A DNA stretch of 49,690 bases, from assembly GCA_913058255.1 (NCBI GenBank), contig CAJXQU010000016.1:1-49690 (forward strand). Direction: 5' to 3'. Under the pieces are notes generated by a model. It was given only the letters and a program-made list of their open reading frames with translations. It was not told where the DNA came from and did no database searches. This document shows, piece after piece, positions 7,217 through 35,110 of the stretch (within the stretch, counting starts at the first letter, position 1; the number at the start of each line of letters is the position of its first letter). The translations under genes and the position numbers were made by a program. This DNA is from an uncultured Pseudomonadota bacterium. Lineage in GTDB: Bacteria; Pseudomonadota; Gammaproteobacteria; CAJXQU01.

Positions 7217-7230
7217 TTGATCTAGATCAA
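7217..7230. promoter_or_regulatory. FNR/Anr box
   Basis: TTGATCTAGATCAA is a perfect palindrome and a perfect match to the FNR/Anr consensus TTGAT-N4-ATCAA. Leftward, a class II position (box at -41.5) puts TAGATT (7194-7189) at -10 for the DUF3149 gene. Rightward, TGTAAT at 7255-7260 is 2 bases off the ideal position for the endonuclease gene, which starts 107 bases further on. I favour the leftward target. Confidence 0.75.
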
Positions 7231-7366
7231 GCTTCCTTTGATCAAATTAGGCCTTGTAATTTGATCACCATCGAGCACAATCATGAGTTATTCTTATTTT
7301 TATAAACATTTATTAAGGTCAACCATTATTTTCGGCCAAACTAGCCCCACTTTTAAGGAGCTCATA

Positions 7367-15798: not shown

Positions 15799-17736
15799 TT
15801 ATTTCTGAACCAATCTATTTTCGATCAAGTTATCGACAACGGCAGGATCCGCTAATGTCGAAGTATCACCCAGAGTATCAATCTCATTAGAAGCTACTTT
15901 TCTCAGAATTCGCCGCATTATCTTACCTGATCGGGTTTTCGGTAAGCCTCGAGCCCATTGAATGAAATCTGGAGAAGCAATGGGACCAATCTCTTTCCTT
16001 ACATGCTTAACTAGCTCAGCCTTGAGTTCATCCGATGATTCTTCATTTGCCATCAAGGTAACGTAAGCATAGATCCCTTGCCCTTTAATCTCATGTGGGA
16101 AGCCAACGACTGCAGCTTCAGCTACCGTTGGATGCAAGACCAATGCGCTTTCGATCTCAGCAGTACCCATTCGGTGGCCCGATATATTAATAACATCATC
16201 AATACGGCCAGTGATCCAGTAATAACCATCAGCATCACGACGTGCCCCATCCCCAGTCAAGTAATATCCCGGGTACATAGACAAATAGGTTTCGAAGAAA
16301 CGTTTATGATCGCCATAAATAGTGCGCATCATTCCCGGCCAAGCACGTTTAATAACGAGTATTCCCTCACCTTCTCCTTCGATCTCTTCACCTTTGTCAT
16401 CCAACAAAGCGGGTTCGACACCGAAGAAAGGCTTGCTTGCCGACCCCGGTTTTAATGGTGTAGCGCCAGGCAGAGGTGTAATCAAATGACCTCCGGTTTC
16501 AGTCTGCCACCAAGTATCAACAATCGGGCAACGCTCATCACCAACGACTGTGTGATACCAACTCCAAGCTTCTGGGTTGATCGGCTCGCCGACTGAACCC
16601 AAGATCCGCAAGGTTGACCGAGAAGATCGAGTAACATACTCATCGCCTTGCGCCATCAATGCACGAATCGCTGTTGGAGCCGTGTAAAAGATATTAACCT
16701 TATGCTTATCGACAATATCCCAACAACGACCAGCATCTGGATACGTCGGAACACCTTCGAATACTAATGACGTAGCACCATTACAAAGTGGGCCATAAAC
16801 AATGTAGCTGTGACCAGTCACCCAACCAACATCTGCTGTACACCAGTAAACTTCACCTTCACGATAATCGAAAGCTAGTTTATGGGTCATCGCAGAATAA
16901 ACAAGGTAACCGCCAGTTGTGTGTTGAACACCTTTGGGTTTACCTGTTGAACCTGATGTGTAGAGAATAAACAATGGATCTTCTGCATCCATTTCCTCTG
17001 GCTCACAGTCAGCAGATGCATTCGCACAGGCTTCATGCCACCAAACATCAAGGTCATCATTCCAAACGGTATCTGAACCCGTTCTTTTCACAACAAAAAC
17101 AGTCTCCACCGAAGGACAGTTCACTACAGCGACATCAACATTCTCTTTCAATGGAACTTCACGGCCACCACGGAGTGCCTGATTAGCGGTGATGATCGCT
17201 TTACACTCTGCACCTTGCACACGATCTTTTAACGCATCAGATGAAAAACCACCAAAAACAACTGAGTGAATAGCACCAATTCTTGTACAAGCTAACATTG
17301 CAACAACAGCTTCTGAAATCATTGGTAAGTAAATCGCTACACGATCACCTTTTCCAATGCCTCGAGCCTTCATCGCATTAGCAAAACGGCATACTTTTTC
17401 GTGCAATTGTCGATAAGTGATCTCAGAAGATTCATCCGGAGAATCACCTTCCCAAATAATGGCGACTTGATCGCCTCGTGTTTCAAGATGTCTATCTAGG
17501 CAGTTGTAACTTACATTTAACTTGCCACCTTCAAACCAGCGGATATCACCATTTTTGAAATCGTTTGTTTGAACCTTGAACCAGGGTTTTGACCATGTTA
17601 CATATTCCGTCGCTTGCTGCGCCCAGAAGTTATCCGAATCTTCCGTGGAAGTTTTATACATTGATTCGTACTGCTCCGCATTGATATGTGCATCAATCAA
17701 CGAAGCAGGAACTGGGTAAATATTTTTAGCTGTCAT
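15799..17736 (-). CDS. acs: Acetyl-CoA synthetase (first copy)
   Basis: Acs forms acetyl-CoA from acetate, ATP and CoA via acetyl-AMP, releasing pyrophosphate. The 645-residue protein shows the adenylation P-loop [37 protein letters not shown] with the hinge Asp, and [15 protein letters not shown], whose Lys is the site normally acetylated for control. It has a good ribosome site (GAGGAA). A sigma-54 promoter match and an upstream inverted repeat lie between it and the AcoR-like regulator gene, and the ALDH follows. This links it to aldehyde-to-acetate-to-acetyl-CoA flux. It is a paralogue of the copy at 33182-35110. Confidence 0.96.
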
Positions 17737-18027: not shown

Positions 18028-20040
18028 TTACTTTTTAAGCCTTCGGTATAACGTTGATCGGGCAATTCCAAGTTTCTTCGCAGCTTGAGAAACATTCCCT
18101 TTTGACTCTCGAAGCGTTTGCTCGATTAAGTCGTTACCTAAATACTTTAAGCTTTCATTCTGTTCATAAACAAAGCTTATTGCCTGTAAAAAGTGATCAG
18201 GAATATCCTCTATTGTAACATTTGAGCCTTCTACCGTTAGTGCCCATCGGTGGCATAAATTGTACAGTTCACGTAAATTCCCTGGCCAGCTATATTCCAT
18301 CAAAACCTTTTCGACTGCGGCTGACAACCTCAATGGTTCTCGTCCTATAGATTGACAGGCTTCTTCCGTTATAAACTCAGTCAAAAGCGTAATGTCTTGC
18401 TCTCGATCACGCAACGCAGGCAAATCAATTTCTAAAACAGAAACACGATGATACAAATCCAGCCGAAACTCTCCCGCTTCAGTAAGTTCTCGAAGGTTTT
18501 GTCCAGATGCCGTGATAATCCGACAATCAACGGGATTGGCCTGATAGTTACCTATCCGTGTAACTGCATTCTCTTCTATAACTCGTAATAATTTCACCTG
18601 AACATATACGGGCATTGAGTCAATCTCATCAAGAAAGATCGTTCCCCCATTAGCAGCTTCAAATTTCCCCGGCATCCCATGACGTTTTGCACCCGTAAAT
18701 GCTCCGCCCTCATAACCGAACAGTTCACTTTCAACCAAATCTGCAGGCAATGCACCACAGTTTATCGCAATAAAAGGTCCCGAAGATTGATCAGAAGCTG
18801 AGTGTATAGCTTGGGCAACAAGTTCTTTTCCTGTTCCCGTTTCACCTTGTAATAAGACGGGATTTTTAAGCTTATCGCGTGAGGCCGCCTTAGCCAAACG
18901 AATTGCTTTTTGTAAAAAAACTGAGTTTCCTTTGATGTCCTCAAAGGTAAAATACTTCTTCTCCTCACAAGTCGAGATCGTTTTTTGTTGTTTTTGACGT
19001 CTTTCTGTTAAGACCAAAACCCATGCAGAATCTCGGTTTGTTGTTTGTATTGGTTCGATCCGACACTGCAACTCTATCTGCTCATTTGCAGAAAAAATGA
19101 AGTCATTGAAACCTTCGGTTATCGACAGTGCTGGTTGAAGGTTTTTCCACAGTTGAGGGAGCTTTTTTGCCAATATTTTTTTTGTTGAACTTCTAATATC
19201 AAGGCTCAACATTTGTGAAGCACGGAGGTTTAGATCAAGAAAATCACCATCCGAATGCAATAATAACAATCCTTCATGTGGCCATTGGCGCTCGAGGTTA
19301 TCTAGCAATGCTTGTCGCTGCTCACGAATCTTAAAATGCTGGATCTCGAGTACTTGCTCTATAGATCGAGCAATAGATATCGTTAAAGCTAAACTCTCAT
19401 TCTTTACAAAACGAGCGGGTCCAGTTATATCAACAACACCAATAATACTTTCCTTGCCTGGCGCTCGGATCGGCGCTCCATAGCAAACCCAAGATTGCCA
19501 CCCTTGGCAATAGTGTTCTGGGCCAAGAACCAGCTCTGGTCGACCAAGAGACAATACGGTTCCAATACCATTGGGACCAACTTTTTCCTCGGACCAACAT
19601 GCGCCGGGCATAAAATTAATTCGCTCTAGTTGCCTTTGTGTTTCAACTTGCCCGACGCTATGCAGCATTTGCCCTTGCTTGTCGGCAAGTACCAGCACAT
19701 GGTCACTATCGGATAAAAGGTCTGAGTAGTTATCCAATATATCAACACCACAACGACCCAGCTCATGATTCTGCATGTATTCTTTTAAACGCTCGAAACT
19801 TAGCGCGGTAGGTGCGCTCATTGCCTCAGGGTCAAGTCCAATTTCTCGGCAATGCTCCCAGCTGTTTGCTATAACAGGACGGGGCTTATCACCCGAAAAC
19901 TGACCATTTTGAATAAAGGATTCCCAAGCAACGGTAGTTTCAGCAGTTAATTTTCTGGGATCAACCGGAATAAGAGTTTCTTGTGAGGAAGGTAATGAAG
20001 CCATGCGCATTCGCCTTATTGGGTCATTTCTATTCATCAT
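18028..20040 (-). CDS. Sigma-54-dependent activator of the AcoR type
   Basis: The 670-residue protein has an N-terminal GAF-like sensory region (about 70-230), a PAS-like linker (about 250-345), an AAA+ domain (about 360-590) and a Fis-type helix-turn-helix at the end ([19 protein letters not shown]). The AAA+ part has the Walker A GETGTGKE, the sigma-54 contact loop GAFTGA and a Walker B ending FLDEID. The order and the N-terminal segment fit AcoR, which activates acetoin or related C2/C4 catabolic genes. It lies immediately upstream of acs and the ALDH, and a -24/-12 promoter precedes acs, so these are the likely targets. The effector (acetoin, acetaldehyde, ethanol) is unknown. ATG 20037 is an equivalent start. 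Confidence 0.88.
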
Positions 20041-22328: not shown

Positions 22329-22793
22329 TCAATATTCTAAGCTTTCTAAAATCCGCCATTGATCTGTTTCTATTTCGACATACCACTGGCCTATTACTAA
22401 TGTTGGTAACTCGCCTGAATAAATATTTTCATTACCCAACGTTAGACTAACTTCCTTATCAAAACCTTTGCGTGTTTTATTCAAAAAACTCGCTTTAATT
22501 TCTTTCGGATAAATAAATTGAGGATTGGCGGTCAGCATTATTTTCAACTTTTTAGCTTCTTCGTCAAAGTTGACCATTGCTGATAAGTTTAGTTCTTTAG
22601 CTGCATTTTCAAGTTTCAAGATGCGGTTAATAACGAGCCCATCTTTATAGTAATGCTCGGACACCAGCCCATCATCAGAGATTACGGCAAGGTAGATCGT
22701 ATAGACCCCAGCCACAACCGCCGTCAATGGCAAACCAATCATCAACCAAACATAAGGACTTGAGTACCAAGATACAGGTTCATTTTTCATCAT
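22329..22793 (-). CDS. ccoH: CcoH/FixH family cbb3 oxidase assembly protein
   Basis: The 154-residue protein has one N-terminal membrane span (about 15-37) and a periplasmic FixH domain; DDGLVSEHYYKDGLVIN is the family signature. CcoH stabilises the nascent cbb3 oxidase. Its start overlaps the ccoG stop by 4 bases (ATGA), so translation is coupled. It is the last gene of the leftward cco block and is followed by about 200 bases without a gene before the convergent esterase. Confidence 0.92.
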   Translation of the reverse strand: MMKNEPVSWYSSPYVWLMIGLPLTAVVAGVYTIYLAVISDDGLVSEHYYKDGLVINRILKLENAAKELNLSAMVNFDEEAKKLKIMLTANPQFIYPKEIKASFLNKTRKGFDKEVSLTLGNENIYSGELPTLVIGQWYVEIETDQWRILESLEY

Positions 22794-24199
22794 TGTCTTG
22801 GCCCCAAAAATCGTGTTTCACCTTCAATCATTAGTCCATCTTTATCCGTCGACTGAAAATGAAAAAATACCGGTGTGCTTCTTTGTTTTAGATCGGCTTC
22901 ATCTATCTGTAACCTGACAGGTAGATCTAAAATCTCTCCACCTTGTGCTACAATTTTTTCCTGCTCTAATTCCATGTTTAATCCTTCAAGACCATCGACT
23001 GTCAGCAAAAATTCGTGTGCTTCTTCGTCCATGTTAACCAATTTAATAGTATAAACATTTTCGATCAAACCTTCGTTTGTTTCTCTAAAGATAGCATTTC
23101 TATCACGCAAAATATCTAGATGGAGCGGAACCCGCGCAGCCATTAAATAGATGAAGGTGAGAACTAAGCCGAGCATGATGAGTCCATACACGGCGATCCT
23201 TGGACGAAATAGTTTAGTTGGCTTTCCATCAACATTATTTTGAGTTGTATATTTAATCAGTCCTTTGTCATAGTTCATTTTTTCCATGACATCGTCACAC
23301 ACGTCGATACAAGCAGAGCAGCCTATACATTCGTATTGTAAACCTTCACGAATATCAATACCTGTCGGGCACACTTGTACACATAAATGACAATCAATAC
23401 ACGAACCCAAACCTTCAGCTTTATAATCAGAATCCTTTTTACGACCACCTCTTGGATCACCACGCTTTTCATCGTAAGCCACAATCAAAGTATCGTTATC
23501 AAACATAGTGCTTTGGAAGCGTGCATATGGGCACATATACATACACACCTGCTCACGCATCCAGCCGGCATTTCCGTAAGTCGCAAGTCCGTAAAAGAAA
23601 ATCCAAAAAACTTCCCAAGCCCCTAACTCAAATATAAAAAGATTATGAGCCAGATCATTTAATGGTGTGAAATAAGATACGAAGATAAAGCCTGTAAAAG
23701 CAGAAAAAATTATCCATCCCGCATGTTTCGTGAATTTTATACGAAACTTTTTTGCCGACATCGGAGCTTTATCCAGTTTCATTTGCTTATTGCGATCGCC
23801 TTCAACCCAGCGTTCAATCCAAATAAAAACTTCTGTCCAAACTGTTTGAGGACAAGCATATCCACACCACAAACGTCCAGCTAATGTGGTAAAAAAGAAT
23901 AAGGCCATTCCAGCAATGATTAATAGAAAAGCGAGAAATATAAAGTCTTGCGGCCAGAGTGTTAGACCAAAAATATGAAATTTCCGTGCTGGAAGATCGA
24001 GCAGTACAGCCTGTCGACCATCCCATTGCAACCAGGGTAATCCGTAGAATAGACCGAGTAATGCAAAGACTGCCCAGATCCGCAAGGTAGCAAACCTTCC
24101 CTTAGCTTCCTTCGAGTAAATTTTCTGATGCCCTACATTAGATGCAAGTGACTCTTCGTCTTTTAATTTCTGATCAACTTTTACTTTTAAATGGCTCAT
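22790..24199 (-). CDS. ccoG: CcoG cytochrome oxidase accessory protein
   Basis: CcoG (RdxA/FixG) is a membrane iron-sulfur protein that reduces Cu(II) to Cu(I) during cbb3 assembly. The 469-residue protein has about five membrane spans, the CGYACPQTVW motif, and two ferredoxin-type clusters in CIDCHLCVQVCP and CIGCSACIDVCD. An immunoglobulin-like C-terminal domain (about 350-469) faces the periplasm. It follows the 84-residue membrane protein gene after 28 bases and overlaps ccoH. Confidence 0.95.
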   Translation of the reverse strand: MSHLKVKVDQKLKDEESLASNVGHQKIYSKEAKGRFATLRIWAVFALLGLFYGLPWLQWDGRQAVLLDLPARKFHIFGLTLWPQDFIFLAFLLIIAGMALFFFTTLAGRLWCGYACPQTVWTEVFIWIERWVEGDRNKQMKLDKAPMSAKKFRIKFTKHAGWIIFSAFTGFIFVSYFTPLNDLAHNLFIFELGAWEVFWIFFYGLATYGNAGWMREQVCMYMCPYARFQSTMFDNDTLIVAYDEKRGDPRGGRKKDSDYKAEGLGSCIDCHLCVQVCPTGIDIREGLQYECIGCSACIDVCDDVMEKMNYDKGLIKYTTQNNVDGKPTKLFRPRIAVYGLIMLGLVLTFIYLMAARVPLHLDILRDRNAIFRETNEGLIENVYTIKLVNMDEEAHEFLLTVDGLEGLNMELEQEKIVAQGGEILDLPVRLQIDEADLKQRSTPVFFHFQSTDKDGLMIEGETRFLGPRQ

Positions 24200-24227
24200 G
24201 AATCTCTCTTAACTTACATACCAAAAG

Positions 24228-24482
24228 CTACTTTCCTCGCAAGAAATAGCTTGTTAATAAACTTGATGCTGCTGTTAATAACCAAAAAAGTAAAAAACCG
24301 ACAGTATAGACTCCCATACGGCTCATTACGGGAAAAGTCACACAACCTCTCAATGCTTCAGGATCTATTACGGAGAAAAATACCCCTGTAGCAATACCTG
24401 CCATAACAAAAGATAACCACAATATAATGATGATTTTTTGCACGTGAGAAAGATCGTTTTTATTATTTTTAAGCTCTGACAT
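24228..24482 (-). CDS. Unrecognised two-span membrane protein of the cco locus
   Basis: I do not recognise this 84-residue protein. It has two predicted membrane spans (about 16-38 and 58-80), a basic C-terminus (YFLRGK) and a single Cys in the loop ALRGCVTFPVM. ATG 24482 was chosen because AGGTG lies 6 bases upstream; a GTG 9 bases earlier overlaps this site. It sits between ccoP and ccoG, where cbb3 assembly factors are expected, and probably starts its own transcript (TATAAT at 24518-24513). A part in insertion or maturation of the oxidase is only suggested by position. Confidence 0.7.
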   Translation of the reverse strand: MSELKNNKNDLSHVQKIIIILWLSFVMAGIATGVFFSVIDPEALRGCVTFPVMSRMGVYTVGFLLFWLLTAASSLLTSYFLRGK

Positions 24483-24512
24483 ATCTAACACCTATTGGTT
24501 GACCCATTACTG

Positions 24513-24539
24513 ATTATAAATGAATAATCAAATGATCAA
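24513..24539 (-). promoter_or_regulatory. Sigma-70 promoter candidate before the 84-residue gene
   Basis: On the minus strand TTGATC (24539-24534) is followed after 15 bases by a perfect TATAAT (24518-24513). The spacer is shorter than the usual 17. It lies in the 149-base gap between ccoP and the 84-residue gene, so ccoG and ccoH could be expressed independently of ccoNOQP. Confidence 0.4.
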
Positions 24540-24631
24540 ATATGAAATATTAAATATTAACAAAACCTAATATAAATAAAGAAGTAGTCCAGCCTGAGCG
24601 AGAGTCTATCCCACCCAGATCTGAACGAGTA

Positions 24632-25540
24632 TTACTTTTCAGTATCTAACGATAAGCTATACACATAAGCGGCTAATAAGTGAACTTTTGCTTCACCTAA
24701 GAACTCACCATGTGGAGGCATTACCCCTTGCCGACCAGCACTAATTGTTTCCATGATGCGTTTGTTAGAACCACCATGTAACCAGACTTTATCCGTCAAG
24801 TTAGGAGCGCCCAGCACTTGCATGCCTTGAGCATTGGCACCATGACAAGCAGCACAGGTCGTCGCATAGACTTCTTTACCCTTTGCTGCAACCAATGCGT
24901 CAATATCTCTACCACTTAAAAACTCAATATAGGCCGTAACATTAAAGACACCCTCATTACCGATGATGTCGCCCCAAGCAGGCATCATTCCAGAACGACC
25001 AGACATAATTGATGTCTTGATAGTCTTAGGATCTCCACCGTATAGCCAGTCATTATCTGTCAAGTTTGGATAGCCTCTTGCTCCACGCGCATCCGAACCG
25101 TGGCACTGTATGCAATAGCTTGAGAAAAGCCGTTTTCCCATTTCTCGTGCTTCAGGATCAGCCGCGACTACTTTTAGATCCTGTTCAAGATAGCGGTTAA
25201 ACAAGGGGCCATACGTTTCTTCAGCCGTTGCGACTTCACGATCATACTGATTCGCTTGGCTCCAACCTAGTAACCCCTGAAAATTACCTAGCCCGGGGTA
25301 AAGTGCAAGATAAATCGTTCCAAACACCAACGTGATGTAAAACATCATCAACCACCAACGTGGCATTGGGTTATTCATTTCTTGCAGATTTTCATCCCAA
25401 ATATGGCCTGTTGTTTTAACCTCACCTTTAAACTGTCCTTTTTTGGCTTGGGTTAAAACAATAAACCAACAAAATATAATACTCAGAACGGTTATGATTA
25501 TGACAAACCAGCTCCAAAAATCACTGACAAAATCAGCCAT
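24632..25540 (-). CDS. ccoP: cbb3 oxidase subunit III, dihaem cytochrome c
   Basis: CcoP takes electrons from soluble cytochrome c and passes them to CcoO. The 302-residue protein has two N-terminal membrane spans (about 11-31 and 64-84, as in the longer CcoP form) and two cytochrome c domains with CIQCH (143-147) and CAACH (229-233). The start codon overlaps the end of ccoQ by 8 bases, with AAGGAG inside the ccoQ end, so the two are coupled. Confidence 0.97.
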   Translation of the reverse strand: MADFVSDFWSWFVIIITVLSIIFCWFIVLTQAKKGQFKGEVKTTGHIWDENLQEMNNPMPRWWLMMFYITLVFGTIYLALYPGLGNFQGLLGWSQANQYDREVATAEETYGPLFNRYLEQDLKVVAADPEAREMGKRLFSSYCIQCHGSDARGARGYPNLTDNDWLYGGDPKTIKTSIMSGRSGMMPAWGDIIGNEGVFNVTAYIEFLSGRDIDALVAAKGKEVYATTCAACHGANAQGMQVLGAPNLTDKVWLHGGSNKRIMETISAGRQGVMPPHGEFLGEAKVHLLAAYVYSLSLDTEK

Positions 25541-25718
25541 TAGAATTCTCCTTATTACTTGTGGTTATCACCACATCTTCATCATCTTCAAGTGGGATCC
25601 GCGCAGCTTCTTCAAACTCCGCTTTATTTGAGTCGCTCCAAGCCCAAATAATGATCCCTACGAAAACAACAAACACAAAGACGGTCCAAAAAGATTGAAA
25701 TGCGTGTAAAAATTCCAT
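25533..25718 (-). CDS. ccoQ: cbb3 oxidase subunit IV
   Basis: CcoQ is a single-span subunit that stabilises the complex. The 61-residue protein has one membrane span (about 9-29: SFWTVFVFVVFVGIIIWAW) and an acidic tail. I chose ATG 25718 with GGTG at 6-base spacing, 5 bases after the ccoO stop; a GTG at 25727 overlapping that stop is the alternative. Confidence 0.92.
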   Translation of the reverse strand: MEFLHAFQSFWTVFVFVVFVGIIIWAWSDSNKAEFEEAARIPLEDDEDVVITTSNKENSNG

Positions 25719-25723
25719 TCCGA

Positions 25724-26338
25724 TCACCGACGCATTTTCACAGCGGTACCCAACTCTTGTAGGTACGCTATTAAGGCATCCATCTCAGTTTTACCTTCAA
25801 GTTCAGCTGGAGAATTTGCAATCTGTTCATCCGTATAAGGTGAACCTAACGTTCGCATTACTTCCATTTTCTTCTGAATAATAGAAGCATCCGCAGGAGC
25901 ATCCGCTAGCCAAGGGTAGCCAGGCATAACCGATTCTTTAACAAGCGCTCTAGGATCCATCAAATGTTCACGATGCCACTCATCACTATATCGGCCACCA
26001 ACACGGTGAAGATCCGGGCCCGTTCGTTTTGAACCCCACTGGAAAGGACGGTCATATACAAACTCTCCCGCCAATGAATAGTGTCCATAACGCTCCGTTT
26101 CGGCTCTGAAAGGTCTAATCATCTGTGAATGACAGAGATAACACCCTTCACGAACATAAACATCACGCCCGGTTAAACGCAGTGCAGAATAAGGTTCTAA
26201 GCCTTCTACTGGCTGTGTTGTTGAGTGCATAAAGAACAATGGAACGATTTGTACCAAACCACCAATGCTGATGGTAAGCACTATCAATATGATCATCAGT
26301 CCTATATTGGTTTCTATTTTTTCATGTGTAAAAGCCAT
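25724..26338 (-). CDS. ccoO: cbb3 oxidase subunit II, monohaem cytochrome c
   Basis: The 204-residue protein has one N-terminal anchor (about 12-34) and a periplasmic cytochrome c domain with CYLCH at 66-70 followed by SQMIRPF, the conserved CcoO haem site. A distal Met ligand is available in VMPGYPWL. It follows ccoN after 17 bases with a strong ribosome site. Confidence 0.97.
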
Positions 26339-26355
26339 TTCAGTTCTCCTTCTTC

Positions 26356-27777
26356 TTAATGTTCCATGGCCGGTTCAGGAATTCGCGCCACAGCAGGCGT
26401 TGCTCCCTTAACTGTTTTCCAAACGTTAAATGCCATGATCAACATTCCGATTAGGAATAACAGACCACCTAATGTTCTGATGATATAGAACGGATGCATT
26501 GCTTCCACAGTTTGAATGAAGCTATAAGTCAATGTGCCATCGCTATTAATCGCACGCCACATAAGACCTTGCATAATTCCAGACACCCACATAGAAGCGA
26601 TATAAAGAAGAACGCCGATCGTTGCAACCCAAAAGTGAACTTCAATTAATTGTTTACTATAAATTTCACGATTAAATAAGCGAGGGATCAAGTAATACAA
26701 ACTACCGATGGTTACCATGGCAACCCAACCTAACGCACCTGAATGTACGTGTCCTATTGTCCAGTCCGTATAATGTGAAAGTGCATTAACCGTCTTGATG
26801 GCCATCATCGGCCCTTCAAAAGTCGACATCCCATAGAATGAAACCGCAATGATCAGAAATCTAAGAATAGGATCCGTTCTCAATTTGTCCCAAGCGCCTG
26901 ATAAGGTCATCATTCCGTTGATCATGCCACCCCAGGAAGGTGCTAATAAAATCAAAGACATCACCATGCCTAAAGACTGGGTCCAATCTGGTAATGCTGT
27001 GTAGTGAAGATGATGCGGCCCAGCCCAAATGTATGTGAAAATCAACGCCCAAAAATGGACGATAGATAGACGATAGGAATAAACAGGACGTTCTGCTTGC
27101 TTAGGAATGAAGTAATACATCATGCCCAAGAAGCCAGCCGTTAGGAAGAAACCTACCGCATTGTGCGCGTACCACCATTGGATCATCGCATCTTGAACAC
27201 CAGCGTAAGCAGAGTAAGATTTCGTCATCGAAACTGGGATCGCCGCGCTATTCACAATATGCAGCATCGCGACAGTGATAATAAATGCGCCCAGAAACCA
27301 ATTAGCTACGTAAATGTGCTTAATACGCCTTTTCATGATCGTGCCGAAAAAAACAATCGCGTAACATATCCAAACAACAGCAATCAATATATCAATAGGC
27401 CATTCTAACTCGGCGTACTCCTTCGAGCTTGTTATGCCTAGAGGCAAAGTAATGGCTGCTAGCACAATAACTGTCTGCCATCCCCAAAAAGTGAATGCAG
27501 CCAATTTGTCACAGAATAAACGCGCGTGACATGTCCGTTGGACAATATAATAAGACGTCGCAAATAAAGCTGAGCCACCAAATGCAAATACCACTGCATT
27601 CGTGTGCAATGGTCTCAATCGACTAAACGTTAGATAAGGTATATCAAAATTAAGTACTGGCCACGCTAGCTGTGCAGCGATTATCACACCAACAAGCATT
27701 CCAACAATGCCCCAAACAATAGTCATTATGGCAAATTGCCGCACGACCTTATAATTATATGTTTCTTCAGTAGCCAT
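26356..27777 (-). CDS. ccoN: cbb3 oxidase catalytic subunit I
   Basis: CcoN carries haem b, the haem b3-CuB site and the proton channel of this high-affinity oxidase used at low oxygen. The 473-residue, 12-span protein contains [16 protein letters not shown] with a haem ligand His, [13 protein letters not shown] with the CuB/Tyr cross-link region, and [13 protein letters not shown]. It opens the ccoNOQP operon. The 250 bases upstream show only a TTGAT half-site (27862-27866), not a full FNR box. Confidence 0.97.
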
Positions 27778-28029: not shown

Positions 28030-28752
28030 CTAGAAACGCCGACCGATACCAATCCCGTAAACAACCGGGTTAATCTCAACATCAACATTAACATCACCAA
28101 CGGCTGTATTTCGGAACTCTGCACGCGTATCCATATCAATATATTTAACATCAATATTCGCAAACCAGCCGCTATTTCCTAGGTCAAAATCAGCACCGAC
28201 TTGAGCAGCCCAGCCTAAAGAGGGCCGCATCTTAACAGTTGAACCATCAACCGCAAGAGGGCCCGTTACATCTTCGCCGTAGAAAATTGTATAGTTCAAA
28301 CCAACACCAACATACGGACGAAAATTAGACTCTGGTATAAAATGGTATTGAAATGTCAATGTTGGCGGTAGTGCCCACGCATCAATCACGTCACGACCAC
28401 CTGTTCCTGTTGGAGGAAGACCGTTCAAAGCACCTATCAGAGCTGAACCCTGCGGACTTACATCATGTTGCGATGTCCCTAAGATCAACTCAATACCCCA
28501 GTTTGGAGACAGCATGTAAGTAATATCCAGTTCAGGAACTGTACTGCTACCTACACCGACGGAACTTTCTGCCACAGAACCACCCAGCGCAGGAACATCA
28601 ACTTGTGTGCTGTTATCATTAGGACTTACATTGATCCCTCTAACACGAACGATCCAATCACCAGCTTCCGTGCCTGTAGCTTGAGCAGCAAAACTTGTTG
28701 CGCCTGAGGCGAGCAATAAACCAATAACGAAACTTTTGTTTATCGGTTTCAT
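28030..28752 (-). CDS. ompW: OmpW family outer membrane protein
   Basis: OmpW forms an 8-stranded barrel with a hydrophobic channel. The 240-residue protein has a signal peptide (ending ATG-TEAG region near residue 26), GDWIVRVRGINVSPND as the first strand, and ends in GIGRRF with C-terminal Phe. PELDITYMLSPNWGIELI and FRPYVGVGLNYT are family blocks. ompW is under FNR control in several gammaproteobacteria, and here a perfect FNR box lies 133 bases upstream with GATAAT (28863-28858) near the class II -10 position. Confidence 0.92.
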   Translation of the reverse strand: MKPINKSFVIGLLLASGATSFAAQATGTEAGDWIVRVRGINVSPNDNSTQVDVPALGGSVAESSVGVGSSTVPELDITYMLSPNWGIELILGTSQHDVSPQGSALIGALNGLPPTGTGGRDVIDAWALPPTLTFQYHFIPESNFRPYVGVGLNYTIFYGEDVTGPLAVDGSTVKMRPSLGWAAQVGADFDLGNSGWFANIDVKYIDMDTRAEFRNTAVGDVNVDVEINPVVYGIGIGRRF

Positions 28753-28884
28753 TTTTTAACTCCCATTTTTAAACTATCGATATTTAATACCCTCAAACAA
28801 AACCTCGCTTACCATGATAAATTTGATAACTAAGATCAGCTTTTGATTTTTTTATGTATTATCGATGACAGAAAAAATCATATG

Positions 28885-28898
28885 TTGATCTAGATCAA
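28885..28898. promoter_or_regulatory. FNR/Anr box in the ompW-ccoI divergent region
   Basis: TTGATCTAGATCAA is a perfect consensus palindrome, identical to the box at 7217. Leftward, GATAAT (28863-28858) sits one base from the ideal class II -10 of ompW. Rightward, the box is about 62 bases before the ccoI start, with no good -10 visible. It may serve both genes. Confidence 0.8.
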
Positions 28899-28960
28899 AT
28901 GTTGCTTCATTGCAGTCACTGAATAGGTTGTTGGTCTTACGATCTGGCACAATAACGGCC

Positions 28961-31393
28961 ATGGATGATGAAAAATGTTTCCACTGCGGGCTTTCTGTCG
29001 CTTCTGGTTTGAGCTTGTCAGTATTGATCAATAAACAGCTGCAACCCATGTGCTGTGCTGGCTGTCAAACTGTGGCTCAAACTATTGTTGATTCTGGCTT
29101 AGAAAGTTACTACCAACATAGAACCGCCTCCGCAGCTAAGGCCGAAGAAGCACTGCCCGATTTTCTACAACAACTCTCTATCTACGATGAGCCCGAATTA
29201 CAGAAAAGCTTTGTCACTGACGTCGACGAGCATCAACATGAAGCAGCGCTCATCTTAGAGGGCATCACCTGCCCCGCTTGCGTCTGGATGAACGAGCAGC
29301 ATTTAAAAACCTTACCGGGCATGATCGAAGTTCAAGCAAATTTTTCCACCCGACGCCTACAGGTTCGTTGGGATGACAATCAAGCTAAGCTCAGTGACAT
29401 TCTCAAAGCGATTTATGCGATCGGTTACAGAGCCCATCCATATGATCCGGAACAGCATCAGACGATCATTAATAATGAAAAGAAGCTACTTCTAAAACGT
29501 CTAGGCATCGCAGGTGTGTTAGGTATGCAGGTGATGATGCTGGCTATTGCGCTTTATACCGGTGACTTTGCGCAGTCAGAAGAAAAGTACCAACATTTTT
29601 TCTATTGGATCAGCTTCCTACTCACTCTACCTGTGGTTGTTTTTTCCGCTAGAGCATTCTTCGATCCTGCATTGCGCGATCTAAAACAACACAAATTGGG
29701 TATGGATGTGCCCGTCTCTATTGGTATATTGATCGCCTTTTTTGCCAGCCTGAAAACAACCATCATGGGCTCCGGCGAGATCTACTATGACTCAGTTGTC
29801 ATGTTCACATTCTTCTTATTGCTCGCTCGTTATCTAGAATTGATCGCACGAAAACGAGCGACTGAAACACTCGAAGATCTCATCCACCTCACTCCAGCCA
29901 CAGCCTTACGCTTGAAAGATCAAACTGAAGAGCTTATCCCAGTAGCAAGATTAGATATTGGTGACCGTGTGTTAGTTAAACCTGGTGAAACGATTCCTGC
30001 TGATGGTCATATTGTCATGGGTTGCTCCAGTGTAGATGAGTCTTTGCTTAGTGGAGAGAGTCTGCCATTAACGCGACGCAAAGGTGATGCTGTGATTGGT
30101 GGCAGTATTAATATCGAAAGTCCATTACAAGTTATCATCGATGCCATTGGCCAAGATAGCCTATTATCTCGAATAACCAGCTTGATGGAACGGACGCAGA
30201 TGGAGAAGCCAAGCATCACAAAGCTCGCTGATCGTGCCGCTGCTTATTTCGTTCCTACGATTCTGATCTTAGCCAGTCTCGTCGGGTTTTACTGGTGGAT
30301 AAATGGTGATCCTCATTGGTTTGAAATTATCTTATCTATGCTGGTCGTCACCTGTCCCTGCGCACTATCCCTAGCAACGCCAGCAGCAATGACCGTCGCC
30401 ACCGACACCTTCATGAAGCTTGGCATTTTAGTGACTCGCGGTCATGCCATAGAAACCCTATCGCGTGCGGATCATTTTATCTTTGATAAAACAGGAACAT
30501 TAACAGAAGGAAAGTTAGCACTAACTCACGTTGAAACATTTACCGATCAAGATCAACAACAATGTCTTAACATTGCTTGTGCTTTAGAGGTTCACTCAGA
30601 ACACCCTATAGCAAAATCTATTCTCACTTATTCTACAAAAAACACAACGATCACTGAAATTCACAATGTCATCAACACACCAGGCTCTGGCTTAACGGCT
30701 AATATCGATGGGCAAGAATACTGTATCGGCAATATTGCTCACATAAACCAACATTCGCACGCAACACTGTCCACCGATCAGCTTCTTGAGTATCAACAAC
30801 AAGGTGCTTCATTAATCTTACTGGCTGATCAGAAACAACTACTCGCCATTTTTGTTTTACAAGACAGACTACGAGCGGGTGCAGATAAAACTATTGCTGA
30901 ATTGCAAAATAAAAATAAGAAAGTCTCGCTACTTTCTGGAGACTCTGCTGTCGCCGTTAATTCCATTGCCCAGCAACTGAACATCAGCCATTTTCAGTCC
31001 GGCTTAAAACCCGACGACAAATTAGAACAGTTGAAAAAACAGCAACAAAATGGAGACGTTCTCGCCATGATCGGTGATGGAGTGAATGATGCCCCGGTGC
31101 TAGCTGGCGCTCAGGTTTCTTTCGCCATGGGTTCTGGTGCTCAAATTGCGCGCTCCAATGCTGATCTAGTGTTACTAAAAAATCAATTGCCTATTATCAT
31201 AAAAGCGATTGACGTCGCGGAAAAAACTGTCAGGATTATCAAACAAAATATGCTGTGGGCAGTGGCTTATAATCTGTTGGCATTACCCTTCGCTGCTCTA
31301 GGGTTTCTAGAACCTTGGATGGCCGCTATCGGCATGTCGCTTAGTTCTTTGCTGGTTGTCTCGAATGCTCTAAGAATCAAGAAGACTACGTAA
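28961..31393 (+). CDS. ccoI: Copper-translocating P-type ATPase for cbb3 assembly
   Basis: CcoI/FixI exports Cu to the periplasm for insertion into the cbb3 active site. The 810-residue protein has an N-terminal Cys-rich segment (CFHCG at 6-10 and CCAGC at 31-35), an HMA domain with CPAC at 104-107, about eight membrane spans with the CPC motif at 465-467, the phosphorylated Asp509 in DKTGTL, and GDGVNDAPVL. I chose ATG 28961; an in-frame TTG at 28910 lies only 12 bases from the FNR box and is unlikely. ccoS follows after one base. Confidence 0.95.
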   Translation: MDDEKCFHCGLSVASGLSLSVLINKQLQPMCCAGCQTVAQTIVDSGLESYYQHRTASAAKAEEALPDFLQQLSIYDEPELQKSFVTDVDEHQHEAALILEGITCPACVWMNEQHLKTLPGMIEVQANFSTRRLQVRWDDNQAKLSDILKAIYAIGYRAHPYDPEQHQTIINNEKKLLLKRLGIAGVLGMQVMMLAIALYTGDFAQSEEKYQHFFYWISFLLTLPVVVFSARAFFDPALRDLKQHKLGMDVPVSIGILIAFFASLKTTIMGSGEIYYDSVVMFTFFLLLARYLELIARKRATETLEDLIHLTPATALRLKDQTEELIPVARLDIGDRVLVKPGETIPADGHIVMGCSSVDESLLSGESLPLTRRKGDAVIGGSINIESPLQVIIDAIGQDSLLSRITSLMERTQMEKPSITKLADRAAAYFVPTILILASLVGFYWWINGDPHWFEIILSMLVVTCPCALSLATPAAMTVATDTFMKLGILVTRGHAIETLSRADHFIFDKTGTLTEGKLALTHVETFTDQDQQQCLNIACALEVHSEHPIAKSILTYSTKNTTITEIHNVINTPGSGLTANIDGQEYCIGNIAHINQHSHATLSTDQLLEYQQQGASLILLADQKQLLAIFVLQDRLRAGADKTIAELQNKNKKVSLLSGDSAVAVNSIAQQLNISHFQSGLKPDDKLEQLKKQQQNGDVLAMIGDGVNDAPVLAGAQVSFAMGSGAQIARSNADLVLLKNQLPIIIKAIDVAEKTVRIIKQNMLWAVAYNLLALPFAALGFLEPWMAAIGMSLSSLLVVSNALRIKKTT

Positions 31394-31575: not shown

Positions 31576-32385
31576 TTATCCACCACGCTTCATGCCCTTC
31601 CCCACCAGATGATGATCATGATGCATTTCTTGCGTATTGTTCATTTTGGTTCCCGCCTCTGTAGTTGAATTATGATTCATGTCATGCCCCATATGTGCAG
31701 AATGATCCATCGGCACCATGAGCGTCTTCGCGGCCAAACCGATCATGAGCACACCAAACAGCTGCCTAACTCGTGGTTTTCGTAACCACTGACTGAGGCC
31801 ACCAGTGATCAAACCCGCTCCCACCACCGCGGGTAATGTCCCTAAACCAAAAGCCAGCATGCCCATTCCACCATTGCTGGCGCTTCCGCCAAGCGCTGCT
31901 AGCAATAAGGCTGAATAGACTAATCCACAAGGGATCCAACCCCAGACCAATCCAAAACCCAACGATTGCCACGGTTTTTTTACAGGTAGAAATCGCTGCC
32001 CTAATGGCTGGATTCGCTTCCAAAACTTTGCCCCTAGCTTGTCCAAACGAGAAAAGTAAGGAAACCAGCCGGCCACATAAAGCCCTACCGCAAAAATCAT
32101 AATAGCCGACATATAACGGGTAATATCATGCGCTTTTCCCATGCCGATAGAGCCAACCAAAGTAGCCCCAATCATACCAACCAAAATGCCTGCAAATGAG
32201 TAGCTGATTAAGCGACCTAGATTATAAGCAGCAATATATACAATCAGCTGAAGCTTGTTCTCGCGGATCTTCTTTTCCAATCCAAACGTTAAAGCCCCGA
32301 TCACTCCACCGCACATTCCGATACAGTGGAAAGAGCTGAATAGTCCGAGGATGAAAAGTGCCAACAGAGAAAATTCATTATCCAT
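31576..32385 (-). CDS. TauE/SafE-like (DsbD_2) membrane protein with metal-binding tail
   Basis: This 269-residue protein has six to seven membrane spans and the motif FHCIGMCGGVIGAL near the N-terminus (Cys21, Cys25), as in the sulfite exporter/UreH-like family that accompanies cbb3 gene clusters. Residues 224-269 form a soluble tail with eight His and six Met (for example HSAHMGHDMNH and MHHDHH), which looks like a copper or nickel binding segment. Location beside ccoI and ccoS suggests copper handling for the oxidase. An FNR-type box lies 75 bases upstream. The exact transported species is unknown. Confidence 0.85.
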   Translation of the reverse strand: MDNEFSLLALFILGLFSSFHCIGMCGGVIGALTFGLEKKIRENKLQLIVYIAAYNLGRLISYSFAGILVGMIGATLVGSIGMGKAHDITRYMSAIMIFAVGLYVAGWFPYFSRLDKLGAKFWKRIQPLGQRFLPVKKPWQSLGFGLVWGWIPCGLVYSALLLAALGGSASNGGMGMLAFGLGTLPAVVGAGLITGGLSQWLRKPRVRQLFGVLMIGLAAKTLMVPMDHSAHMGHDMNHNSTTEAGTKMNNTQEMHHDHHLVGKGMKRGG

Positions 32386-32459: not shown

Positions 32460-32473
32460 TTGATCTAGATCAT
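32460..32473. promoter_or_regulatory. FNR/Anr box upstream of a putative small RNA
   Basis: TTGATCTAGATCAT matches the FNR consensus at 9 of 10 specified bases. Rightward, TCAAAT (32496-32501) sits exactly where a class II -10 should be, giving a start near 32508. Leftward, toward the TauE-like gene, the equivalent position reads GGCCGA and is poor. The rightward transcript is therefore the better candidate, though both may be served. Confidence 0.7.
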
Positions 32474-32507
32474 TCTCCAACGCCTTAAAACGTGCTCAAA
32501 TTAAACT

Positions 32508-32645
32508 GCTCTCTCACAAGAGTGGCCCATTCATTACTAACGATCAGCGTTTACAATACTCTGTGTATTTCACGCCTTTTGATCACATCGCTACGGAGAA
32601 GTTTCTTCCTTATCCCCTCGGAAAATCCGTAGCGATGATTTTTTT
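32508..32645 (+). ncRNA. Candidate FNR-activated small RNA (about 138 nt)
   Basis: No ATG-initiated frame of useful length exists in this interval, yet it has a promoter-like start and a strong terminator. Predicted helices by eye are CTCT/AGAG (32511-32522), a compound hairpin of GATCA, GCGT and AATAC pairing with GTATT, ACGC and TGATC (32542-32584), and the terminator stem (32586-32637), which starts one base later. The terminator loop holds CTTCCTTATCCCCTC, a C-rich stretch complementary to ribosome binding sites of the GGGGAUAAGGAAG kind. I do not recognise the family. Transcription is inferred from sequence alone. Confidence 0.55.
32586..32645 (+). terminator. Strong intrinsic terminator without an upstream gene
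   Basis: A perfect 11-bp stem (CATCGCTACGG at 32586-32596, CCGTAGCGATG at 32627-32637) is followed by A and seven T. No protein gene on the plus strand ends near it; the nearest is the convergent ccoS stop more than 1 kb upstream. It therefore defines the 3' end of an orphan transcript. Confidence 0.8.
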
Positions 32646-33048
32646 CTTCATTTCGATCCAATAAATAAACTTTTATAAAACAGTTAAATACCTCTCCAGT
32701 ATTGCTAATCACACCTACTTAAAAAAGGAATGCTTAACATCGTATCTCATCCTTATTTTCATGACTGATTAATACTACAGGAATAGGGTAAGTTCTTGAG
32801 TATAAAGATCGCCATGCAGCTTGGTCATCATTAGAATAATATCAATAAACTACTACACTATTTGTAAGGAAATAACTCTTGCTGCATAACTATGCTCTAT
32901 GTCTGAGACAAGCATGAAACGGCGGCTATAAAATATAAAAACTAATTTATTCTTAGAACTATATAGAAGATGTAATAAGGGAGAAAAGCTAAACTTTAGT
33001 TGATATTTTTGTAGGAAATTTAAGACAAGTACTCACTAACATTCTAAC
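32646..33048. other. AT-rich intergenic stretch without a recognisable gene
   Basis: The gap between the TauE-like gene and acs (32386-33181) holds the FNR box and putative small RNA, then about 400 AT-rich bases in which I see no convincing frame, ribosome site or repeat. It may contain untranslated promoter debris. Confidence 0.6.
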
Positions 33049-33080
33049 TAATCTACGGGATTGTGGCATCCCGTAGATTA
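33049..33080 (-). terminator. Hairpin downstream of the second acs gene
   Basis: TAATCTACGGGAT (33049-33061) and ATCCCGTAGATTA (33068-33080) form a perfect 13-bp stem with a 6-base loop, 101 bases past the acs stop on the minus strand. There is no T-run after it on that strand, so it may stabilise the 3' end more than terminate. Confidence 0.5.
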
Positions 33081-33181
33081 AACTCTAACTGATCCATGCA
33101 CCTCCCACTTTAGTAACCAGGCATAGGCAGGTCACTTTCTTCAATACCTGCTTGAGATCCTTAAGACCTTAGAGATGCGTT

Positions 33182-35110
33182 TTATCGACTCTGTATCAAA
33201 TCCTCAACAACAGAGGGATCTGCCAAGGTACTGGTGTCTCCTAAACTATTAAAGTCGTTTTCTGCTACTTTTCTTAAAATACGACGCATGATCTTACCTG
33301 ATCGTGTTTTCGGTAAGCCTGGCGCCCAGTGAATGATATCCGGTGTTGCCACAGGGCCAATTTCTTTTCGCACATGCTTGATCAGCTCAGCTTTCAACTC
33401 ATCGGTATATTCCCGCCCCGCCATCAAGGTAACGTAGGCATAAATACCCTGCCCTTTTATTTCGTGAGGATATCCAACCACCGCAGACTCGGCGACGGCA
33501 CTGTGTAAAACCAATGCACTCTCGACTTCAGCGGTACCCATTCTATGTCCAGATACGTTGATAACATCATCAACTCGACCTGTAATCCAATAGTAACCAT
33601 CTTTATCACGCCGACAGCCGTCACCCGTAAAATAATAACCTGGATACATTGAGAAATAAGCCTCGTGAAAACGTTCAGGGTCATTGTAAATGCCACGCAT
33701 TTGTCCCGGCCATGAACGTGGAATCGCTAAATTACCGGATGCTTCTCCTTCAAGAACATGACCTTCATCATTCAGCAACACTGGTTCAATTCCAAAAAAT
33801 GGTTTACTCGCCGAACCTGGCTTCGCAGCCGTTGCGCCCGGTAAAGGAACGATCATGACGCCACCCGTTTCAGTCTGCCACCAGGTATCAACAATCGGGC
33901 AGTTGCTTTTACCAACTTTATGGTAGTACCACTCCCAAGCTTCAGGGTTGATCGGCTCACCGACCGATCCTAATATGCGTAAACTGGAACGATCCGTTGT
34001 TTCCAAAAACTGATCACCCGCCCCCATCAATGCTCGAAGTGCTGTTGGTGCCGTATAAAAAATATTGACTTGATGCTTATCGACAACTTGCCAGAAACGA
34101 CTTGCATCAGGATAACTAGGCACACCTTCAAACACTAATGTTGTCGCCCCGTTGGCTAATGGCCCATACAGCAAATAGGTATGTCCAGTGATCCAGCCAA
34201 CATCCGCCGTACACCAAAAAGTTTCACCTTCCTGATAATCAAAAACGTATTTGAACGTCAGTGCTGCATAGAGTAGATAACCTCCCGTTGTGTGCATGAC
34301 GCCTTTTGGCGTGCCTGTTGAACCTGATGTATAAAGAATAAAGAGTGGATCTTCTGCCTCCATCACTTCTGGTTCACACGTAGTTGCTTGCTGATCAACA
34401 ACATCGCTATACCAAACATCACGATCATCATTCCAGGCAACATCACCGCCGGTAACTTTGCAGACTACGATCTTTTCGATCGATGGTGTTTCTTTACATG
34501 CCTCATCGACATTGGTCTTTAATGGAATTGGTTTTTTACCACGTAATCCTTGATCGGCAGTAATAACAACTTTACATTCTGAATCATTAATCCGACCACG
34601 AAGTGCTTCCGGTGAAAAACCACCGAATACAACAGAGTGAATGGCACCGATACGACTACACGCTAACATCGCGTATGTGGCTTCAGGGATCATTGGCATA
34701 TAAAGACAAACACGATCACCTTTCTTGACGCCTACCGAACGCAGATAATTGGATAGCTGACAAACGCGATCATGCAATTGTTGAAATGTAATATTTTCAC
34801 TTTTCTCTGGGTTGTCACCTTCCCAAACAATCGCAATTTGATCGGCTTTTGTAGCTAGGTGTCGATCGATACAATTATACGAAACATTTAGCTGAGCGCC
34901 TTCAAACCAACGGATGTCAGCCTTGAGATAATCAACAGCTTGAACCGTATCCCACTTTTTATACCAGTCCAGCATTTCATCCGCTTGTTCAGCCCAAAAT
35001 GTATCAGGGTCATCTATCGACTGTTGATACATTTTCAAATAGCGCTGCTCATCTATATGTGCTGTTGCTGCAGTTCCTTTTTTTACTGGGTAAAGAGTAG
35101 TTTCTGACAT
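33182..35110 (-). CDS. acs: Acetyl-CoA synthetase (second copy)
   Basis: This 642-residue paralogue of the protein at 15799-17736 is colinear along its full length. It has [37 protein letters not shown] and [15 protein letters not shown] with the regulatory Lys, so it should be active. It lies in a leftward group with an ActP-like symporter, so it probably handles acetate taken up from outside, while the other copy is tied to aldehyde oxidation. The 34-base gap to the upstream gene suggests co-transcription with it. Confidence 0.95.

Follow-up and report, generated by a model that had tools for sequence, protein, structure and literature searches.

We describe here a predicted small RNA gene at the cbb3 oxidase locus of an uncultured gammaproteobacterium, the product of which is most likely a lineage-restricted, FNR-activated, trans-acting small RNA. 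On comparison of three genomes we consider it very likely that this RNA gene is real and confined to its lineage; its activation by FNR is likely, and a target of some kind in trans is probable. The mRNA of ompW, a neighbouring gene with an FNR box of its own, is put forward tentatively as that target.

The small RNA gene and its neighbourhood

The window, meaning the whole stretch of DNA that was analysed (49,690 nucleotides), is one entire contig of a 2.78 Mb genome assembly, and the relatives compared with it are gammaproteobacterial MAGs. A viral-contig pattern scan returned 0 matches. The small RNA unit lies on the plus strand between safE and acs (32460-32646), about 4 kb from ompW within the same cbb3 locus. 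The features are as follows.

22329-27777: cbb3 oxidase genes (COX1, FixO, FixP, FixG and FixH type proteins)
28030-28752, minus: ompW-family outer membrane protein gene, proposed target (Pfam OmpW, E 3.8e-50)
28761-28782, minus: proposed target site over the ompW Shine-Dalgarno, -30 to -9 (predicted pairing)
28885-28898: perfect FNR box between ompW and ccoI
28910-31393, plus: ccoI-type ATPase gene
31576-32385, minus: safE, divergent from the small RNA (Pfam DsbD_2, E 1.1e-51), adjoining it in 3/3 genomes
32460-32473, plus: FNR box TTGATCTAGATCAT, one mismatch to TTGATNNNNATCAA
32493-32501, plus: extended -10, TGnTCAAAT
32508-32646, plus: small RNA of about 139 nt (138 and 142 nt in the relatives), from predicted start, terminator and fold in 3/3 genomes
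32508-32526, plus: 5' hairpin (fold; consensus helix)
32525-32545, plus: seed segment with CCCAUU, largely single-stranded by unpaired probabilities, predicted to pair with the ompW leader in 3/3 genomes
32542-32584, plus: middle hairpin with a GAUC...GAUC frame, diverged in sequence (folds per genome)
32586-32646, plus: terminator with the near-invariant stem CATCGCTACGG/CCGTAGCGATG, a C-rich loop and seven T
33182-35110, minus: acs, on the far side of the small RNA

Structure and conservation of the RNA

The unit occupies the same place, divergent from safE and beside ccoI, in all three genomes of the order that were examined (G000, G001 and G002). Counted across these three, the invariant columns are 29 of 78 in the leader on the safE side, 13 of 14 in the FNR box, 3 of 19 in the spacer, 7 of 9 in the extended -10, 1 of 6 from the -10 to the start, 15 of 20 in the 5' hairpin (32508-32527), 6 of 14 in the single-stranded segment that follows, 6 of 44 in the middle, 11 of 11 and 10 of 11 in the terminator arms, 14 of 30 in the terminator loop and 0 of 21 downstream. 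This pattern is the trace expected of a promoter plus an RNA gene.

Folded as a whole, the RNA is predicted to form three consecutive helices at -38.3 kcal/mol (z = -4.9), and none of 200 shuffled sequences was as stable. Seven T (32639-32645) stand directly 3' of the terminator stem. The three helices and the strong seven-T terminator proposed in the initial annotation are thereby confirmed. Conservation of the helices, which that annotation had named as a check, holds for the 5' hairpin and the terminator stem; the middle hairpin has diverged in sequence and kept its GAUC...GAUC frame, and when folded for each genome separately it reaches z values of only -2.9, -1.2 and -1.8. Two-sided changes occur in 4 of the 26 consensus pairs, a thin covariation due to the availability of only three genomes. 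Titration of CsrA was considered and rejected, as the GGA of the relatives' 5' hairpin is missing from the window RNA. One feature is unexplained by a small RNA model: the terminator arms (32586-32596 and 32627-32637) are almost identical letter for letter in three species in which the middle of the RNA has diverged, and pairing alone requires no fixed sequence.

The RNA appears to be restricted to this order. A DNA search recovered the terminator part in both of the two other genomes of the same genus and in 0 of 53 other genomes of the class. A covariance model built from the three sequences, a check that had also been suggested, matches 3/3 genomes of the order, which are the model's own sources. 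The same three were the only matches among 369 genomes of the class, and the window's own genome was the only match among 398 of the phylum, so that this model found no relative of the RNA in the other 366 genomes of the class or the other 397 of the phylum; since searches of more than 40 genomes used stricter filters, distant relatives could escape detection in these large sets. In the nearest SafE outgroups (L011-L015, 43-46% identity) there was neither a credible model match nor, upstream of safE, an FNR box of the form searched for, and the best E value at the other 73 loci of the SafE scan, searched with the covariance model only, was 0.42. Two records of that scan, L009 and L010, were taken as the G002 and G001 contigs and were not counted as further species. 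Against Rfam, the window and both relatives' loci gave 0 matches at the gathering score and no credible match at a relaxed threshold.

Candidate targets of the RNA

The small RNA is likely to act in trans, and the best cross-species support for a predicted target comes from the CCCAUU segment, not from the terminator loop. CCCAUU had been named as a seed candidate beforehand. In a seed-only test the segment was set against leaders from about -35 to -4, using background gene starts (407 in G000, 382 in G001 and 282 in G002) that were called by a simple script and drawn from an estimated 14%, 15% and 12% of the three genomes, plus the home loci. By predicted pairing the segment is able to mask the Shine-Dalgarno of ompW in each of the three genomes, and ompW ranks 16/407, 4/382 and 7/282 by energy. 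Scored by the product of rank fractions, ompW comes first among the 22 ortholog triples (P = 0.017), with the next about twentyfold behind, and in each species further RNA bases outside the core are predicted to pair with the ompW leader of the same species (P = 0.014, 0.075 and 0.226 when the leader is shuffled above the core; Fisher 0.011); these P values are partly post hoc because ompW was spotted in the ranking first and tested afterwards, and with an assumed 1,500 triples genome-wide about 1.2 equally good ones would be expected by chance. Once the cost of opening the site is added, ompW comes no higher than 63/407, 87/382 and 41/282, a scoring under which individual predictions are noisy and the ranks of orthologs uncorrelated. 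The G002 RNA also pairs better with the two other ompW leaders than with G002's own. Weighing these results, we hold ompW to be a possible target, with some doubt.

Other routes to a target were also tried. Searching G001 and G002 with exact 9-mer seeds gave no more matches than the reversed control, and no target at a start codon was common to the two genomes. Matches to the stem arm (ATCGCTACRG) for which the locus was retrieved lie mostly inside coding sequence; one such match, at sdhD/sdhA, occurs in two genomes but not in G000, where it has been lost, and a conserved protein end accounts for it. The stem-arm matches do not account for the near-invariance of the terminator stem. Duplex prediction with the whole RNA was of no use for target finding owing to its long helices.

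The region between ompW and ccoI carries an FNR box in all three genomes. Toward ompW, the class II place reads GATAAT or AATAAT in G001 and G002, with the hexamer one base off in G000; toward ccoI it reads GAATAG, GGATAG and AGATTT. With a box in front of each, FNR would activate ompW as well as the RNA, which suggests an incoherent feed-forward loop if the RNA targets ompW.

The most serious alternative holds that the C-rich terminator loop is an active anti-Shine-Dalgarno element repressing aerobic genes such as sdhC, and that the ompW match arose by chance. This is close to the initial annotation, which had described such a loop, proposed repression of aerobic genes and suggested predicting targets of the loop against ribosome sites. 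The loop is real sequence and is partly kept (14 of 30 columns), and many of the most favourable predictions by energy place it on Shine-Dalgarno sites. It is predicted to pair with sdhC in G000 (-9.1, rank 13/407) and G002 (-5.8, rank 62/282), and to pair strongly at the Shine-Dalgarno of two orthologous beta-barrel-like protein genes (L296 at 1184 in G000 and L241 at 585 in G001), which rank 2/407 and 11 in G001. However, Shine-Dalgarno sites are G-rich and any C-rich loop therefore scores well. Tested with the loop alone, the 22 ortholog triples give a permutation P of 0.26 with no orthologous target standing out, genome pairs give P values of 0.16, 0.03 and 0.68, and the beta-barrel pair gives 0.15. 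Moreover, sdhC in G001 has no loop pairing, its best value being -2.5 through another segment, so that the proposed repression of this aerobic gene finds predicted pairing in two genomes and fails in the third. We consider it unlikely that the loop is the acting element.

The putative FNR promoter

Whichever segment pairs, the likely activation of the small RNA by FNR draws on its promoter. The -10 (TCAAAT, 32496-32501) has a TG upstream (32493-32494), and by sequence the box is centred at -41.5 relative to the predicted start at 32508, the class II distance, in all three genomes. The FNR-type box and the -10 exactly at that distance had both been reported initially, and both are upheld by the comparison, 13 of the 14 box positions being shared. 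Within the window alone, two sites combine a box with the exact spacing against an average of 0.65 in 20 shuffles, and ten boxes with at most one mismatch occur against 4.45 expected, which is not clearly beyond chance; it is the conservation in 3/3 genomes that raises the site above chance. A simple promoter and terminator scan of the window did not list the small RNA site, because it required a -35 hexamer and limited loops to 8 bases, below the loop length of this terminator. A perfect FNR box (TTGATCTAGATCAA) is also present at 7217-7230, just before a plus-strand endonuclease-like frame at 7283; on the minus strand, the class II place of this box holds a weak -10 (TAGATT).

All three genomes encode Hfq and FNR-type proteins with the CxxCx5C motif, which we take to be the mark of an oxygen-sensing FNR-type protein. 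The FNR-box pattern TTGATNNRGATCAW gives 20, 26 and 27 rows in the three genomes, palindromic sites being counted twice, versus 2, 0 and 0 for the reversed control. Thus the earlier claim of an FNR-activated small RNA is well supported, owing to the footprint-like conservation of promoter and RNA in 3/3 genomes, the FNR-type regulators, Hfq and the genome-wide excess of boxes.

Given the divergent arrangement, the box might instead serve safE, with the RNA being an FNR-independent transcript or a by-product of a divergent promoter. Indeed, safE is part of the cbb3 locus, and the box lies 78.5 to 85.5 bases before its start codon, a distance from which an upstream FNR site can act. This distance varies across the three genomes, whereas that on the RNA side is constant at 41.5, which ties the box to the RNA and not to safE; in addition, the -10 is conserved where class II activation needs it and the spacer has diverged. 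An FNR box belonging to safE is improbable.

Less probable still is a transcript that encodes a short peptide or serves as the leader of a gene further downstream. The window RNA is overlapped by two frames with GTG starts, 36 and 33 aa long, so that the original description of about 138 bases devoid of a protein frame stands only as regards a conserved one, and trpB follows on the same strand in the relatives. However, no reading frame is common to the three genomes: starts inside the RNA yield no more than 11 aa (G002) or 16 aa (G001), besides a 43-aa frame starting in the G001 terminator, for which reason a coding RNA was rejected. The gene that comes next in the window, acs, is on the opposite strand, and yet the RNA is kept with its terminator.

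Proposed mechanism and relation to known systems

We propose that when oxygen is low the FNR class II promoter would give rise to a small RNA of about 140 nt that stops at a terminator of its own and probably works with the aid of Hfq. The single-stranded CCCAUU segment behind the first hairpin would then pair in trans with the ribosome-binding region of ompW mRNA and lower OmpW synthesis. As ompW has its own FNR promoter by prediction, FNR would both start ompW and limit it through the RNA. Such an incoherent feed-forward loop might confine OmpW to a pulse or to intermediate oxygen. We infer that the RNA is transcribed, depends on FNR, binds Hfq, targets ompW and represses it. The complete scenario, in which the lineage-specific RNA and ompW are both started by FNR, OmpW is confined to intermediate oxygen, and RNA and leader have changed together in three species, is conceivable but rather doubtful.

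To our knowledge, few lineages have so far yielded small RNAs switched by FNR. FnrS belongs among the Rfam families, and AniS of Neisseria is an FNR-induced small RNA. By its description AniS would share FNR induction with the present RNA, which has no Rfam match. A published account lists FnrS, NarS and PcrZ as described FNR-switched small RNAs, and states that FnrS of Escherichia coli and other enterics is transcribed in an FNR-dependent manner and represses mRNAs in the absence of oxygen (PMC8139620). Both FnrS and the RNA here are small RNAs with FNR-type control, predicted in our case, but the latter lacks an Rfam match and lies at another locus. PcrZ of Rhodobacter sphaeroides is set apart by its description, being alphaproteobacterial and targeting photosynthesis genes, although an incoherent feed-forward loop of its type may exist here, where FNR boxes are found by sequence upstream of ompW and of the RNA in 3/3 genomes. 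A literature search covering titles and abstract beginnings brought up no small RNA described at this locus or in this lineage. Most likely, then, the RNA joins the known class of FNR-activated, trans-acting small RNAs and is itself new. A family of this kind that Rfam lacks and that occurs in a single small uncultured order would suggest repeated origins of such regulators.

For E. coli, one report states that ompW reaches maximal expression under microaerobic conditions and that FNR both activates and represses it through two DNA sites (PMC4886647). Both arms are thus FNR sites on DNA in E. coli, whereas in the present lineage a small RNA would form the negative one. If this proves true, the RNA would be the counterpart of a two-sided FNR control that E. 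coli achieves by two DNA sites, and if the link to ompW holds, two lineages would have reached such control of OmpW by different means.

Sequence beyond the terminator

Synteny ends directly behind the small RNA (window 32650-33181), where acs follows on the minus strand in the window and trpB takes its place in both relatives. The A+T content of 32650-33048 is 70%. In G002 (L002, 1325-1480), a short lipoprotein-like frame of 51 aa with MSGC is oriented toward the small RNA and stops shortly before the terminator. The window contains two acetyl-CoA synthetase-like genes (15799-17736 and 33182-35110), the first of which has an aldehyde dehydrogenase-like gene and, at 18028-20040, a sigma-54 activator in its vicinity.
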